Source of the DNA: Bacteroidaceae bacterium
Lineage (GTDB): Bacteria > Bacteroidota > Bacteroidia > Bacteroidales > Bacteroidaceae
DNA: 64,000 nt
Reading direction: 5' to 3'
Assembly (NCBI GenBank): GCA_017631315.1
Contig: JAGBTN010000015.1
Coordinates: forward strand, 1 to 64,000
Positions 21,457 to 49,663 of this stretch are shown piece by piece. Under the pieces are notes generated by a model. It saw only the letters and a program-made list of their open reading frames with translations, searched no databases and was not told the DNA's origin. Both the position numbers and the translations under genes were made by a program. Positions within the stretch are counted from its first letter, which is position 1. Each line of letters opens with the position of its first letter.

Positions 21457-21462
21457 CTTCTG

Positions 21463-21535
21463 TACGCCCTCAGGGGCTCGAACCCTGGACCCATTGATTA
21501 AGAGTCAATTGCTCTACCAACTGAGCTAAGGACGC
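21463..21535 (-). tRNA. tRNA-Lys (CTT anticodon), copy 1
   Basis: A 73-base cloverleaf. Acceptor GCGTCCT pairs with AGGGCGT, D arm GCTC-AGTTGGTA-GAGC, anticodon loop CTCTTAA with CTT at its centre, T arm CAGGG-TTCGAGC-CCCTG, discriminator A. CCA is not encoded. It differs from copy 2 by one base in the T loop (C versus T before the 3' T-stem strand). Confidence 0.93.
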
Positions 21536-21558
21536 ATCGCAAACTTTTCCAAATCTTG

Positions 21559-21631
21559 TACGCCCTCAGGGACTCGAACCCTGGACCCATTGATTAAGAG
21601 TCAATTGCTCTACCAACTGAGCTAAGGACGC
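21559..21631 (-). tRNA. tRNA-Lys (CTT anticodon), copy 2
   Basis: Same 73-base structure and CTT anticodon as copy 1, with TTCGAGT in the T loop. It is 23 bases upstream of copy 1 in transcription order and 24 bases after a TACCTTTG promoter box. Confidence 0.93.
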
Positions 21632-44570: not shown

Positions 44571-45104
44571 TCAGTTTCCCAAGTAATTGTATGTGAAGTT
44601 TTGACTCTTTATGCTGGGGAACTGGCTACGAACGTCTATGTCCTGACGGCCACGCAGATGGGCTATTACCTTGTTGTAGCACTCCTGAACGCTGTCGGCT
44701 TTCACTTTGCAGGCGAAAGTTGTGTCAATGTAGTGGGACTTTTGCGTTTCGGGAAGTGAGATGACACGTTTGAATACCAGGCGTGCCTCGTACCATCCGG
44801 GCTGCGACTTGGTGTACTGCGACTGTGTTTCCTTCTGTGCCGGCTTCTCGGTCTTCACTTGATTTGCGCCTTTTGTCTTGAACTCTTCCAGTGTGTTTGC
44901 TGTTGTCTTAATGGCGATAAAGAAAGAGCGTGTGTTCACTTTGACGTGTTTGGGATACAGGGCACTGCTGGCCATGAACCTCTCCAGCTCGCCGGTCATT
45001 TCCTCGGTGACTTCCACGCCGTCCAGAGAAGAGAGGAAGTGCAATGCTTCTGCCGCGTTGCTGACAAGTGTTTCTTCGTCGAAGTATCTGATATAAAGAT
45101 TCAT
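44571..45104 (-). CDS. Conserved-looking hypothetical protein
   Basis: A 177-residue protein without signal peptide or membrane helix. It starts MNLYIRYFDEETLVSN and has a middle low-complexity stretch (KTEKPAQKETQSQYTKSQ) linking an N-terminal alpha/beta segment to a C-terminal one (GWYEARLVFKRVISLP; then HLRGRQDIDVRSQFPSI). I do not recognise the family. It lies directly upstream of the lysozyme gene on the same strand. The start was taken at 45104, about 100 bases after a TAATTTTG box (45202-45209); a longer frame to 45185 exists. Confidence 0.65.
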   Translation of the reverse strand: MNLYIRYFDEETLVSNAAEALHFLSSLDGVEVTEEMTGELERFMASSALYPKHVKVNTRSFFIAIKTTANTLEEFKTKGANQVKTEKPAQKETQSQYTKSQPGWYEARLVFKRVISLPETQKSHYIDTTFACKVKADSVQECYNKVIAHLRGRQDIDVRSQFPSIKSQNFTYNYLGN

Positions 45105-45201
45105 CCTTGTAGGTTTAATAGTGTAGGGCGCTCCCATAACGAGCGCATCGAAATAAAATTTATCTTCTTGGATTTGAATATACAACCCTCAAAATTGCCT
45201 G

Positions 45202-45473: not shown

Positions 45474-45505
45474 TTGGAAGGAATTGAGAAAATAGCGTAT
45501 CTTTG
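45474..45505 (+). promoter_or_regulatory. Aromatic operon promoter
   Basis: TTG at 45474-45476 and TATCTTTG at 45498-45505; transcription would start near 45512, leaving about 12 bases before the leader peptide ATG. Confidence 0.7.
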
Positions 45506-45523
45506 CCCTACAAACATACGAAA

Positions 45524-45589
45524 ATGGCATACAGCAGCAACTTTTATTTTGGTTTTTACTATTACTTTTACTTTGACAAAACAAGGTGA
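45524..45589 (+). CDS. Phe/Tyr-rich leader peptide of the aromatic operon
   Basis: A 21-codon reading frame, ATG at 45524 and TGA at 45587-45589, between the promoter and pheA. Its centre reads FYFGFYYYFYF; in all it has 5 Phe and 6 Tyr. This is the hallmark of a leader peptide whose translation senses charged tRNA-Phe and tRNA-Tyr. It is not homologous by name to E. coli pheL. It is too short for routine gene calling. The stop codon overlaps the segment GTGAAGCGGG that competes with the terminator, as attenuation requires. Confidence 0.85.
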   Translation: MAYSSNFYFGFYYYFYFDKTR

Positions 45590-45680
45590 AGCGGGTTGCT
45601 CGTATATATAAGATATAGATAAGGTATAACAAAGACAACATAAAGGAACATCCCGCTCACACAGTGAAGCGGGATGTTTT
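45586..45680 (+). promoter_or_regulatory. Transcription attenuator of the pheA operon
   Basis: Segment GTGAAGCGGG occurs twice, at 45586-45595 and 45664-45673. Segment CCCGCTCAC (45652-45660) can pair with either copy. Pairing with the second forms the terminator (45647-45678). Pairing with the first forms an antiterminator. The first copy includes the leader peptide stop codon, so a ribosome that completes the peptide hides it (termination), while one stalled at Phe/Tyr codons leaves it free (read-through). Confidence 0.75.
45647..45680 (+). terminator. Attenuator terminator hairpin
   Basis: AACATCCCGCT (45647-45657) and AGCGGGATGTT (45668-45678) form an 11-bp perfect stem, extended by CAC/GTG with one bulged A, and followed by T up to 45680. 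The U run is short. Confidence 0.75.
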
Positions 45681-45694
45681 GGTATAAAAACAGT

Positions 45695-46537
45695 ATGAAA
45701 CGCATAGCAATACAAGGCATCGAAGGCAGCTTCCACGACATAGCCGCTCATCGCTTCTTTGAAGGAGAAGAGGTGGAACTCGTCTGCTGCAACACCTTCG
45801 AAGAGATGTTTGCCCAACTCAAAACAGACGCCGACCTGCTGGGGCTCATGGCAATAGAAAACACCATTGCCGGAAGTCTGCTCCACAACTACGAATTGCT
45901 GCGCGACAGCGGCATGACTATTGTGGGCGAACACAAGCTCCGCATCAGCCACAGCATCATGTGTCTGCCCGACGAAGACTGGAAAGACCTCACAGAGGTC
46001 AACTCACATCCCGTCGCACTCATGCAATGCCGCAAGTTCCTCTCGGAGCATCCGAGCCTGAAGGCCGTCGAAACAGACGACACAGCAGGGGCCGCTGCCG
46101 ACATCAGCCGCGAACGCCGACACGGACATGCAGCCATCTGCCATCGCGACGCTGCCGACATCTACGGCATGAAAGTGCTGCAAGAAGGCATCGAAACGAA
46201 CAAACACAACTTCACACGCTTCCTCGTCCTCGCCCACCCCGAGAAGGCTCAGACCATTCGCTGTACCAAACACATCGACAAAGCCAGCCTCGTCTTCACA
46301 CTTCCACACGAAGAAGGCTCTCTGAGCGCCATCCTGTCGGTCCTTTCCTTCTACAAACTCAACCTGACTAAAATACAAAGTCTGCCCATCATCGGTCAGG
46401 AATGGCAATACATGTTCTACATCGACCTCTCGTTCAACGATGAGAAACGCTACCAACAGGCCGTCAACGCAATCACTCCGCTGACCCGAGAACTCAAACA
46501 ACTTGGCATCTACGAAAATGGAAGACAAAGCATATAA
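45695..46537 (+). CDS. pheA: Prephenate dehydratase with ACT domain
   Basis: A 280-residue enzyme converting prephenate to phenylpyruvate. The N-terminal bilobed catalytic domain starts IAIQGIEGSFHDIAAHRFF and includes the family MAIENTIAGSLLHNYELL; the usual TRFLVL motif appears as FTRFLVLA (about residues 167-174). A C-terminal ACT domain (about 190-278; LVFTLPHEEGSLSAILSVL) is the typical Phe-feedback site. No chorismate mutase is fused here; it is fused to the DAHP synthase downstream. Start at 45695 is 15 bases after the attenuator terminator. The 3' end overlaps the aminotransferase start. Confidence 0.95.
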   Translation: MKRIAIQGIEGSFHDIAAHRFFEGEEVELVCCNTFEEMFAQLKTDADLLGLMAIENTIAGSLLHNYELLRDSGMTIVGEHKLRISHSIMCLPDEDWKDLTEVNSHPVALMQCRKFLSEHPSLKAVETDDTAGAAADISRERRHGHAAICHRDAADIYGMKVLQEGIETNKHNFTRFLVLAHPEKAQTIRCTKHIDKASLVFTLPHEEGSLSAILSVLSFYKLNLTKIQSLPIIGQEWQYMFYIDLSFNDEKRYQQAVNAITPLTRELKQLGIYENGRQSI

Positions 46538-47705
46538 CATCCAGCCGGCCGACAGACTGACCGACGTCACAGAGTATTACTTCAGTCGCAAACTGAAGGA
46601 AGTGGCAGCAATGAACGCCGAAGGGAAAGACGTCATCAGCCTCGCCATCGGAAGCCCCGATATGCCTCCCTCGCCCGAGACAGTCGAAACACTCTGCCAG
46701 GAAGCCCAAAAGCCCACAGCTCACGGGTATCAGCCCACCATTGGCATCCCCGAATTGCGCCGGGCAATGAGTGGATTCTACAAACGCTGGTATGGTGTCG
46801 ACCTCGATCCGAGCAGCGAGATTCAGCCTCTCATAGGCAGCAAGGAAGGCATCCTGCATGTTACTTTGGCATTTGTCAACGTCGGAGATGAAGTTCTCGT
46901 GCCCAATCCCGGCTATCCCACCTATACAAGTCTCTCGAAACTGCTTGGTGCAAAGATTGTCAACTACGACCTCCTGCCCGAAAACGACTGGCAGCCCGAC
47001 TTTGAGCAACTCGAGAAGATGGACCTCAGCCACGTGAAACTCATGTGGACAAACTACCCGAACATGCCGACAGGGGCAAGGGCAAGACGAGAGACATACG
47101 AGCGACTCGTCGATTTCGCCTTACGCCATAACATCATTGTGGTAAACGACAATCCCTACAGCTTCATCCTGAACGACGGAGAACGACTTTCAATCTTGCA
47201 AGTTCCGCGTGCAAAAGAATGCTGCATCGAGTTCAACTCGATGTCGAAGAGCCATAATATGCCAGGCTGGCGCGTCGGCATGCTGGCAACTAACGCTCAG
47301 TTCGTACAATGGATACTGAAGGTAAAAACGAACATAGACAGCGGAACTTTCCGTGCCCTGCAGCTTGCGGCAGCCAAAGCATACGACAACACCGACCTCT
47401 GGCACAGGCTTGCCAACGTCGATATCTATGCCGGACGACGTCGTATGGCAGAGGAAATCATGCGACTCCTCGAGTGTCAGTTCGACCCTAAACAAACGGG
47501 TATGTTCCTTTGGGGACGCATCCCCGACAAATATAACGATGTGGAAGAACTCACGGAACGTGTCCTCCACGAAGCAAGAGTGTTCATCACGCCCGGCTTC
47601 ATCTTCGGAAGCAACGGCAAACGCTACATCCGCATCAGTCTTTGTGCCAAAGAAGACAAGTTCGCCGAAGCATTGGAACGCATCAAAACAAACATTATAC
47701 AATAA
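46518..47705 (+). CDS. PLP-dependent aminotransferase, likely aromatic, in the Phe/Tyr operon
   Basis: A 395-residue class I/II aminotransferase. SLAIGSPDMPPSPET, GSKEGILHVTLAFVNVGDEVLVPNPGYPTY, the Asn/Asp-Tyr segment VVNDNPYSFI and the Schiff-base Lys in EFNSMSKSHNMPGWRVGM are all present. Its position between prephenate dehydratase and DAHP synthase suggests it transaminates phenylpyruvate and 4-hydroxyphenylpyruvate; this is inferred from context. I take the ATG at 46518, giving a 20-base overlap with pheA; an ATG at 46503 is also in frame. Confidence 0.88.
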   Translation: MEDKAYNIQPADRLTDVTEYYFSRKLKEVAAMNAEGKDVISLAIGSPDMPPSPETVETLCQEAQKPTAHGYQPTIGIPELRRAMSGFYKRWYGVDLDPSSEIQPLIGSKEGILHVTLAFVNVGDEVLVPNPGYPTYTSLSKLLGAKIVNYDLLPENDWQPDFEQLEKMDLSHVKLMWTNYPNMPTGARARRETYERLVDFALRHNIIVVNDNPYSFILNDGERLSILQVPRAKECCIEFNSMSKSHNMPGWRVGMLATNAQFVQWILKVKTNIDSGTFRALQLAAAKAYDNTDLWHRLANVDIYAGRRRMAEEIMRLLECQFDPKQTGMFLWGRIPDKYNDVEELTERVLHEARVFITPGFIFGSNGKRYIRISLCAKEDKFAEALERIKTNIIQ

Positions 47706-47774: not shown

Positions 47775-48839
47775 ATGGAACTCCAACTACAACCCCTGAA
47801 CCTGCCAAGCGACCAGGAACGTGCATTCATCATTGCCGGTCCTTGCAGTGCTGAAACCGAAGAACAAGTGATGACAACGGCCAAACAACTTGCCGGCAAA
47901 GGTTGTCACATATTCCGCGCCGGTGTATGGAAACCGCGAACAAAGCCCGGAGGCTTCGAGGGGCACGGCGAACCGGCACTTTCCTGGATGAAACAAGTAA
48001 AGGAGGAAACAGGCATGCTTACTGCAACGGAAGTGGCTACACCTGAGCATGTCGAACTGGCTCTCAAGTATGGCATCGACGTTCTCTGGATTGGTGCTCG
48101 CACCACAGCCAATCCCTTTGCCGTACAAGCCATAGCCGATGCACTGAAAGGAACTGACGCAACGGTGCTCGTGAAGAATCCCGTCAACCCGGACCTCGAG
48201 TTGTGGATTGGTGCACTGCTACGCATAAACGGTGCCGGCATACAGAAACTGGGAGCCATCCATAGAGGTTTCACCAATTACGAAAAGAAACTCTACCGCA
48301 ACGAGCCGATGTGGCAAATCCCAATCGAACTGAAACGTCGCCTGCCCCATCTGCCTGTAGTTTGCGACCCAAGCCACATCAGCGGACGCCGCGACCTGAT
48401 TGCTCCTCTCTGTCAGCAGGCATTGGACCTCGGTCTCGACGGTCTCATTGTGGAGAGCCACTGCGACCCCGACAAGGCGTGGAGTGACGCTTCGCAACAG
48501 GTGACACCCGAGGTGCTCGACTTCATCGTGTCACGCCTCATCTTCCGCGACAAGACAGAACATTACGACAAGCTGAAAGACCTCCGACACGAGATTGACG
48601 AGTTGGACGACGAACTCATCGAACTGCTTGCCAAACGCATGAAGATATGCCGTAACATTGGCGAATACAAGAAAGAGAAAGGGCTCACAGTCGTGCAGAC
48701 ACGCCGCTATAGCGAGATACTCGACAAGCGAGGTGCACAAGGTTCGCTGCTGGGCATCGGTCGCGAGTGCATAAAGAACATCTTCGAAAACATACACGAA
48801 GAGAGCGTCCGTCAGCAAATGGAGATTATCAACAAGTAA
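47775..48839 (+). CDS. Bifunctional DAHP synthase / chorismate mutase
   Basis: A 354-residue fusion. Residues about 1-255 are the KDO8P-like type of DAHP synthase that joins phosphoenolpyruvate and erythrose 4-phosphate (IIAGPCSAETEEQ, RAGVWKPRTKPGGFEG, VVCDPSHISGRRD, VESHCDPDKAWSDA). Residues about 268-354 form an AroQ-type chorismate mutase helix bundle (LKDLRHEIDELDDELIELLAKRMKI, IGEYKKEKGL). The fusion links the first step of the shikimate pathway with the branch to prephenate and allows feedback via the mutase. It follows the aminotransferase by 69 bases containing a small G+C hairpin. Confidence 0.93.
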   Translation: MELQLQPLNLPSDQERAFIIAGPCSAETEEQVMTTAKQLAGKGCHIFRAGVWKPRTKPGGFEGHGEPALSWMKQVKEETGMLTATEVATPEHVELALKYGIDVLWIGARTTANPFAVQAIADALKGTDATVLVKNPVNPDLELWIGALLRINGAGIQKLGAIHRGFTNYEKKLYRNEPMWQIPIELKRRLPHLPVVCDPSHISGRRDLIAPLCQQALDLGLDGLIVESHCDPDKAWSDASQQVTPEVLDFIVSRLIFRDKTEHYDKLKDLRHEIDELDDELIELLAKRMKICRNIGEYKKEKGLTVVQTRRYSEILDKRGAQGSLLGIGRECIKNIFENIHEESVRQQMEIINK

Positions 48840-48889: not shown

Positions 48890-49663
48890 ATGAAGATTCT
48901 TATCTTGGGCGCAGGCAAGATGGGCAGTTTCTTCACCGATGTCCTGTCGTTCGACCACGAATGTGCCGTCTATGAGATTGACCCACGGCGCATGCGCTTT
49001 CTCTACAACACACAGCGTTTCACTACACTCGACGAGATACGCAACTTCCAGCCCGAGCTCGTCATCAATGCCGTAACCCTAAAATATACCATCGATGTCT
49101 TTGAGCAAGTCATTCCATGCCTGCCTAAAGACTGCATCATATCGGACATCTCTTCCGTAAAGACCGGGCTGAAAGACTTCTACGAACACTCTGGGATGCG
49201 ATATGTTTCTACCCATCCGATGTTCGGCCCCACGTTTGCCAACCTCGGAGCCCTTTCGTCGGAGAACGCCATCGTCATCAACGAGGGCGACTACATGGGG
49301 CGCATCTTCTTCCTCGACCTCTACAGACGACTCGGTCTGAACGTCCACGAATACACTTTCGACGAGCACGACGAGGCAATGGCATACAGCCTGTCGGTGC
49401 CTTTCGTCAGTTCCTTCGTTTTCTCCGCAGTGATGAAACATCAGGATTCACCCGGCACGACATTCAAGCGACACCTGAAGATAGCCAAAGGTGTTTTGGG
49501 AGAAGACAGCACGCTGCTGCGCGAAATCCTCTTCAACCCACGCACAAAGACACACGTAGAAGGCATTCGCACCGAACTGAAAGAACTGATACAGATTATA
49601 GACAACCGCGACGAGAAGGCACTCGATGCCTACCTCGCCAAGATACGCAACAACATCCGCTAA
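48890..49663 (+). CDS. tyrA: Prephenate dehydrogenase
   Basis: A 257-residue NAD(P)-dependent enzyme converting prephenate to 4-hydroxyphenylpyruvate, the last gene of the operon. The nucleotide site is ILGAGKMGSFF (GxGxxG) at residues 4-14; DISSVKTGLKDFYEH and STHPMFGPTFA (about residues 80-115) carry the prephenate dehydrogenase signature. There is no ACT domain. Start at 48890 (MKILILGAG) is chosen because the 48767 frame is only the end of the previous gene read in another phase. Confidence 0.93.
   Translation: MKILILGAGKMGSFFTDVLSFDHECAVYEIDPRRMRFLYNTQRFTTLDEIRNFQPELVINAVTLKYTIDVFEQVIPCLPKDCIISDISSVKTGLKDFYEHSGMRYVSTHPMFGPTFANLGALSSENAIVINEGDYMGRIFFLDLYRRLGLNVHEYTFDEHDEAMAYSLSVPFVSSFVFSAVMKHQDSPGTTFKRHLKIAKGVLGEDSTLLREILFNPRTKTHVEGIRTELKELIQIIDNRDEKALDAYLAKIRNNIR

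Follow-up and report, generated by a model that had tools for sequence, protein, structure and literature searches.

The trp attenuator of Escherichia coli operates through alternative RNA pairings designated 1:2, 2:3 and 3:4, of which the 1:2 hairpin is a standard part of attenuators of this type, and the E. coli pheA leader likewise combines an open reading frame (ORF) of Phe codons, alternative hairpins and a terminator placed before pheA. In the tandem attenuators of mgtCBR the two signals differ, and the Bacteroid-trp RNA (RF01692) is presumably a trp leader. Flavobacterium psychrophilum belongs to the same class of bacteria as the host of the DNA described here. In the available portions of the relevant papers, the Bacteroid-trp RNA is tabled as a cis-regulatory candidate of Bacteroidetes (PMC2864571), a structured 5' element of pheA without an Rfam hit is conserved in Flavobacteriaceae, including F. 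psychrophilum and its relatives, with clues for leader-peptide attenuation at amino-acid operons in the same study (PMC9723704), two leader ORFs precede a single operon in Salmonella mgtCBR (PMC3641672), and short ORFs in the long 5' UTRs of B. thetaiotaomicron recall leader peptides (PMC7366714). Within their accessible text, PMC2864571, PMC4833913 and PMC8305728 add no Phe/Tyr leader, and the literature searched, outside which lie many subscription papers and supplements, yielded no description of such a leader in Bacteroidales. Attenuation of this kind is an established mechanism and, with the flavobacterial pheA 5' element published, the general fact is already known in part.

Here we describe a locus which very likely constitutes a ribosome-mediated transcription attenuator, sensing charged Phe-tRNA and Tyr-tRNA jointly and controlling an operon of the Phe/Tyr branch. 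It lies in a stretch of 64 kb (the window) from a 2.68 Mb assembly of a Bacteroidaceae bacterium, estimated as 86.6% complete, whose nearest named relatives are metagenome-assembled genomes from gut and rumen filed as Bacteroidaceae or Prevotellaceae. Pfam matches give the gene order, all on the forward strand, as pheA, encoding prephenate dehydratase (45695–46537; PF00800; start in agreement with relatives), a class I/II aminotransferase (46518–47705; PF00155; start inferred), a fusion of DAHP synthase and chorismate mutase (47775–48839; PF00793 and PF01817) and tyrA, encoding prephenate dehydrogenase (48890–49663; PF02153; start inferred). An earlier, sequence-only reading had suggested that the Tyr content of the leader suits an operon containing tyrA as well as pheA; the enzymes of the operon make both Phe and Tyr, which fits a sensor of both amino acids. 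By ORF layout, the neighbouring upstream gene (44571–45185) is on the minus strand. Elsewhere in the window, two tRNA-Lys (CTT) genes are adjacent on the minus strand (21462–21631).

The promoter (45474–45505, forward strand) comprises TTGG at 45474–45477, a 20-nt spacer and TATCTTTG at 45498–45505, with the transcription start probably a few nucleotides downstream, and is followed after 18 nt by the ATG of the leader; it is of the Bacteroidota type, for which the consensus is TTTG / TAnnTTTG. Within the 75 nt 5' of the leader ATG, the motif TAnnTTTG occurs in 79 of 83 leaders (non-redundant relatives and the window). The leader ORF (45524–45589, forward strand) begins with ATG at 45524, ends with TGA at 45587–45589 and encodes the peptide MAYSSNFYFGFYYYFYFDKTR; read directly, it has 21 codons, of which 5 are Phe and 6 are Tyr. 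Promoter and peptide are thus as the sequence-only reading had described them. Defined as an ATG-started ORF of 8–45 codons in which a stretch of 10 codons holds 6 or more Phe/Tyr, it is the sole ORF of its kind on either strand of the window.

Four regions of the forward strand account for the alternative pairings. Region 1 (45529–45575), delimited from a predicted fold, has an outer arm at approximately 45529–45541, in the codons preceding the Phe/Tyr run, and an inner arm at approximately 45566–45575, in the TTTTACTTT-type codons, and is predicted to pair with region 2. Region 2 (45582–45605) contains GTGAAGCGGG (copy 1, 45586–45595) with its flanks and is a partner of either region 1 or region 3. 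Region 3 (45647–45660; AACATCCCGCTCAC) is both the 5' arm of the terminator and the partner of copy 1. Region 4 (45664–45680; GTGAAGCGGGATGTT) holds copy 2 at 45664–45673 and a U-tract extending to 45680, and 3:4 is the intrinsic terminator. The 11-bp terminator stem claimed by the sequence-only reading is formed by AACATCCCGCT (45647–45657) with AGCGGGATGTT (45668–45678), beyond which there are a bulged A and three further pairs (CAC/GTG), and has a calculated energy of –21.5 kcal/mol with one flanking pair included; its U-tract is short in this species, being TTTT followed by GG. The repetition of GTGAAGCGGG was also correctly noted, being exact at both sites with the first copy overlapping the leader stop codon, and either copy is able to pair with CCCGCTCAC; the calculated energy of the 2:3 antiterminator duplex is –17.5 kcal/mol. 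A third predicted hairpin, 1:2 (–17.4 kcal/mol with the leader folded alone), had been overlooked; in it, copy 1 together with its 3' flank is paired to the Phe/Tyr codons and those preceding them, and it would complete a trp-type switch. Visual inspection of the folds listed among the 84 leaders shows it in most, with L040 and L046 as exceptions. The start codon of pheA lies 16 nt past the terminator stem and 105 nt from the leader stop; an in-frame ATG at 45674, within region 4, is probably not used.

The E. coli pheA leader (RF01859, Phe_leader) aligns weakly to 45528–45683 (19.6 bits, E = 0.55, against a gathering score of 55), from which the locus differs in having as many Tyr as Phe codons, an operon that also includes DAHP synthase/chorismate mutase and tyrA, and a promoter of the Bacteroidota type. 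It shares the pairing logic of the E. coli trp attenuator, differing in its control codons and phylum. No Rfam family matches the locus at threshold. Membership of RF01859 was rejected on that score below gathering, as was membership of RF00506 (Thr_leader; 21.7 bits, E = 0.056, against a gathering score of 55); RF01692 has no match in the window and none in the whole genome of its host at E values up to 10, and a T-box is not among the Rfam matches at the locus. The flavobacterial element precedes the same gene and may belong with the Phe/Tyr leaders, an identity that draws on its published description, as far as available, rather than on its sequence or codons.

Hairpins with U-tracts are common by the scan rule (2 terminator-like sites, where chance predicts 2.3) and a consensus terminator scan calls the hairpin on the minus strand only, not on the forward strand; the locus might accordingly be taken for a chance peptide-like ORF beside the terminator of a neighbouring gene. 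The distribution of the leader among relatives makes this most improbable, to the point of being negligible. From 126 loci we obtained 116 distinct regions upstream of pheA, mostly of the same genus or family with 12 at the level of the order. The sequence-only reading had named relatives lacking the leader peptide as an observation that would count against it, and a leader was found in 106 of the 116, comprising 99 by rule, one by a relaxed rule (L028) and six located farther upstream (L005, L051, L054, L055, L104, L111). Two pheA regions are cut by contig ends (L043, L118), and in eight the leader was not found within the stretch fetched (L013, L031, L070, L080, L083, L085, L113, L120); in the genome of L031 it precedes the aminotransferase instead. 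A promoter-like TAnnTTTG is situated near the pheA start in L013, L070, L080 and L083, with no leader or model match, and in these four the attenuator has probably been lost. More distantly, 66 loci at the level of the order or class were assembled from 55 of 58 class-level loci (the window, partial G082 and G179 being dropped) and 11 order-level loci (L043 being dropped) that are also counted in the 116 regions. Of these, 48 have a leader, the same number a leader with terminator and 47 a copy in addition, against 2, 0 and 0 respectively in 198 dinucleotide shuffles of upstream regions; in three loci that missed (L136, L139, L168), a shorter aromatic leader can be recognised by eye. A chance association of peptide and terminator is rejected by the absence of the combination from all 198 shuffles and by the uniqueness of the ORF in the window, conservation at 106/116 and 47/66 loci argues against it likewise, and a terminator belonging to the neighbour is rejected because the upstream gene is divergent and points away.

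A model of the off state (R1), built in part from the same genus that was later scanned with it, matched 122 of 139 genomes of that genus at E ≤ 0.1, including 119 at E below 3e-6 and all 18 of good quality; the 17 genomes without a match were 57–89% complete. When the window's own genome was searched with the model for a second element, all matches other than the locus itself and its minus strand were weak (E 0.6 to 4.8). Carriers with established names include Phocaeicola vulgatus ATCC 8482 (L077), Paraprevotella xylaniphila (L079) and Bacteroides caecigallinarum (L098). Outside the class and within the same phylum, one of 20 loci has a leader by eye (L227), these being hand-picked, one or two per family from 17 families and with fused proteins excluded, out of 172 genomes in which prephenate dehydratase was matched. 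We lean, with moderate confidence, towards an ancient, class-wide family in Bacteroidia that senses Phe-tRNA and Tyr-tRNA jointly, has no counterpart in Rfam, follows its genes when they are split, is found ahead of a phenylacetate-CoA ligase operon in two genomes and is doubled in series in several lineages. This breadth, the split operons and the tandem units had, like the 1:2 hairpin, escaped the sequence-only reading.

Where the operon is divided, a unit of aminotransferase and DAHP synthase has its own Phe/Tyr leader in G018, G017, G326, G279 and G015; both parts have a leader in G326, G279 and G015, although the pheA genes of G326 and G279 were recognised as homologous DNA only. Judging from these sequences, the leader accompanies the genes when the operon splits. 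In G031 and G286 a close relative of the leader (109–111 bits; L189:3143–3294 on the minus strand and L190:201–351) precedes four genes. Their products are a possible porin (below cut-off), a thioesterase that matches PF03061 with its PaaI model below cut-off, a protein resembling phenylacetate-CoA ligase (553.6 bits against an NCBIfam cut-off of 646.3) and an ACT-domain protein. These genes might have a part in the salvage of phenylacetate for Phe synthesis. Relatives of the ligase are present in 98 of 151 genomes of the family, the window's own included, and no leader with terminator was found by rule near phenylacetate-CoA ligase genes in 16 regions fetched, in some of which the first gene of the operon may lie outside. 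Two further loci have unusual arrangements: in L194 (G019), approximately 950 nt separate the leader from pheA, leaving room for an extra gene, and in L197 (contig 180 of G299) the contig end carries a second leader of the Phe/Tyr type, MYGRFYSFFYYFAKECKVG.

In six distant relatives (L040, L046, L140, L157, L176, L179), two Phe/Tyr leaders precede pheA, each with a copy and a terminator, and 6 to 43 nt separate the first terminator from the start of the second leader. No TAnnTTTG occurs between the units at any of the six loci and the motif is present 5' of the first unit in two (L046, L140), from which we infer that both units belong to one shared transcript. The arrangement resembles Salmonella mgtCBR, as far as that system is described in the available text, in placing two leaders before one operon; in these relatives both leaders are rich in Phe/Tyr, so that the same predicted signal would be read twice.

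From 109 annotated loci, duplicates included, we derived 84 non-redundant leaders (ORF and terminator being set by hand in L035 and L040), of which 72 were aligned (A2), leaving out L028, L033, L040, L041 and L046, and by hand L035, L039, L042, L044, L045, L048 and L100. In the 2:3 helix 91.8% of cells are paired, against 32–53% in slid controls, and two-sided changes occur in 7 of 8 pairs; in the 3:4 helix 93.2% are standard pairs, with two-sided changes in 8 of 11. Covariation of both pairings in relatives, proposed beforehand as a check, is thereby observed, and that of 2:3 bears out the proposal that the first GTGAAGCGGG competes for CCCGCTCAC. At the positions where the helices conflict (7 positions in 72 leaders, or 504 cells), 2:3 is Watson-Crick with 3:4 a wobble or mismatch in 66 cells and the reverse holds in 9; the antiterminator is the better kept of the two and so is maintained for its own sake. 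L048 has a degenerate copy 1, and region 3 there pairs best with a displaced stretch, CTGAGCGT (–8.9 kcal/mol), as though the antiterminator had moved along the RNA.

For the 1:2 hairpin the evidence is of two kinds. The inner helix is 92.9% paired against 50–72% in slid controls, with zero two-sided changes in A2 and covariation not above shuffles; such a lack of two-sided change is expected from fixed Phe/Tyr codons and is not proof. In the outer arms, native pairs have a mean energy of –10.62 kcal/mol and swapped pairs –7.82 (sd 0.26), the best of 10,000 permutations reaching –8.92, and in 24% of cases an outer arm is bound more strongly by the region-2 flank of another leader than by its own; on these predicted energies, the outer arms are coadapted across leaders. 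Over the 84 leaders, the folds also exceed in stability both synonymous permutations (mean z –1.02, s.e. 0.10) and synonymous sequences weighted by codon usage (mean z –1.57, s.e. 0.12); the shuffle and permutation controls throughout take leaders as independent, uncorrected for relatedness. The window itself is not a strong case for 1:2 stability, its own fold having z = +0.78 against permuted codons, i.e., not more stable, and –0.97 against usage-weighted sequences.

We simulated ribosome positions by omitting from the fold everything between the leader start and a point 12 nt beyond the A site, a model that takes in no refolding behind the ribosome. When the RNA extends to the end of region 3, copy 1 is paired with region 3 in 49 of 84 leaders if no ribosome is present; a ribosome at the first, middle or last Phe/Tyr codon gives 79, 83 and 67, and one at the stop gives 0. 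In full-length RNA the corresponding counts of terminator formation are 83 (no ribosome), 78, 59, 69 and 84 (stop). As the full-length fold favours the terminator in most states, even when the ribosome is stalled, the decision must be kinetic. In the window, RNA ending with region 3 pairs it with copy 1 in all states except the stop, that without a ribosome included, and the full-length RNA forms the terminator in every state tested; with 2:3 prevailing in the absence of a ribosome, an untranslated transcript may partly read through, unlike the textbook case. Copy 1 ends 7–17 nt past the stop in 49 leaders, 21 nt past it in one and before the end of the stop codon in 34, that is, no more than 20 nt past the stop in 83 of 84, and a ribosome at the stop keeps 2:3 in 0/84. 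The leaders fall into two layouts, with copy 1 ending after the stop codon (50) or inside the ORF (34).

The preference of full-length folds for the terminator would also suit a fixed partial brake without sensing, or a leader ORF that boosts translation of pheA by reinitiation, as Korolev et al. propose, in the available text, for leader ORFs near genes (PMC4833913). Such uses are improbable here, because 105 nt, the terminator among them, separate the leader stop from the pheA start, and because they would leave the covariation between copy 1 and region 3 unexplained. Under attenuation, by comparison, the predicted sequence of events is as follows. When both tRNAs are charged, the ribosome would reach the stop codon and cover copy 1, and the 3:4 terminator would form; when either is scarce, the ribosome would stall in the Phe/Tyr run and open 1:2, leaving copy 1 free, so that 2:3 could form before region 4 is made and transcription would continue into pheA. 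Without a ribosome, 1:2 would compete with 2:3.

The same RNA switch could lie downstream of a different sensor, namely a Phe/Tyr-rich nascent peptide which, in the manner of TnaC, stalls the ribosome on free Phe or Tyr, the codons having importance solely through the peptide they encode. Peptide ends of the FYF-S/T type do recur in close relatives. However, Phe and Tyr interchange freely, the length and N-terminus vary and no residue is seen to be fixed across the class; it is the number of Phe and Tyr codons together that is retained, and we regard peptide arrest as unlikely. Phe and Tyr codons occur together in 83 of 84 leaders, with means of 5.1 and 4.5. Sensing of charged tRNAs remains our favoured reading. 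It draws on what the sequence and its relatives show, namely a leader ORF with its stop codon suitably placed and three predicted alternative pairings, of which 2:3 and 3:4 covary and 1:2 has coadapted outer arms. Anatomy, covariation and distribution fit the mechanism of the E. coli pheA and trp type that the sequence-only reading had proposed, and that reading, right on its facts, is very probably right on the mechanism too.

The interest of the locus lies in its breadth, its joint sensing, its tandem forms and its bearing on transcription-translation coupling in Bacteroidota, and for the Phe/Tyr operon of a major phylum of the gut it offers a candidate amino-acid sensor that can be tested. 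Bacteroidia mostly lack Shine-Dalgarno initiation and, if our reading is true, coupling in this group would be tight enough for attenuation; since attenuation needs a ribosome close behind RNA polymerase, these leaders would provide a natural assay for coupling. A tandem transcript may ask the same question twice, such that the responses multiply, and the tandem forms would show how an attenuator can be sharpened by duplication.
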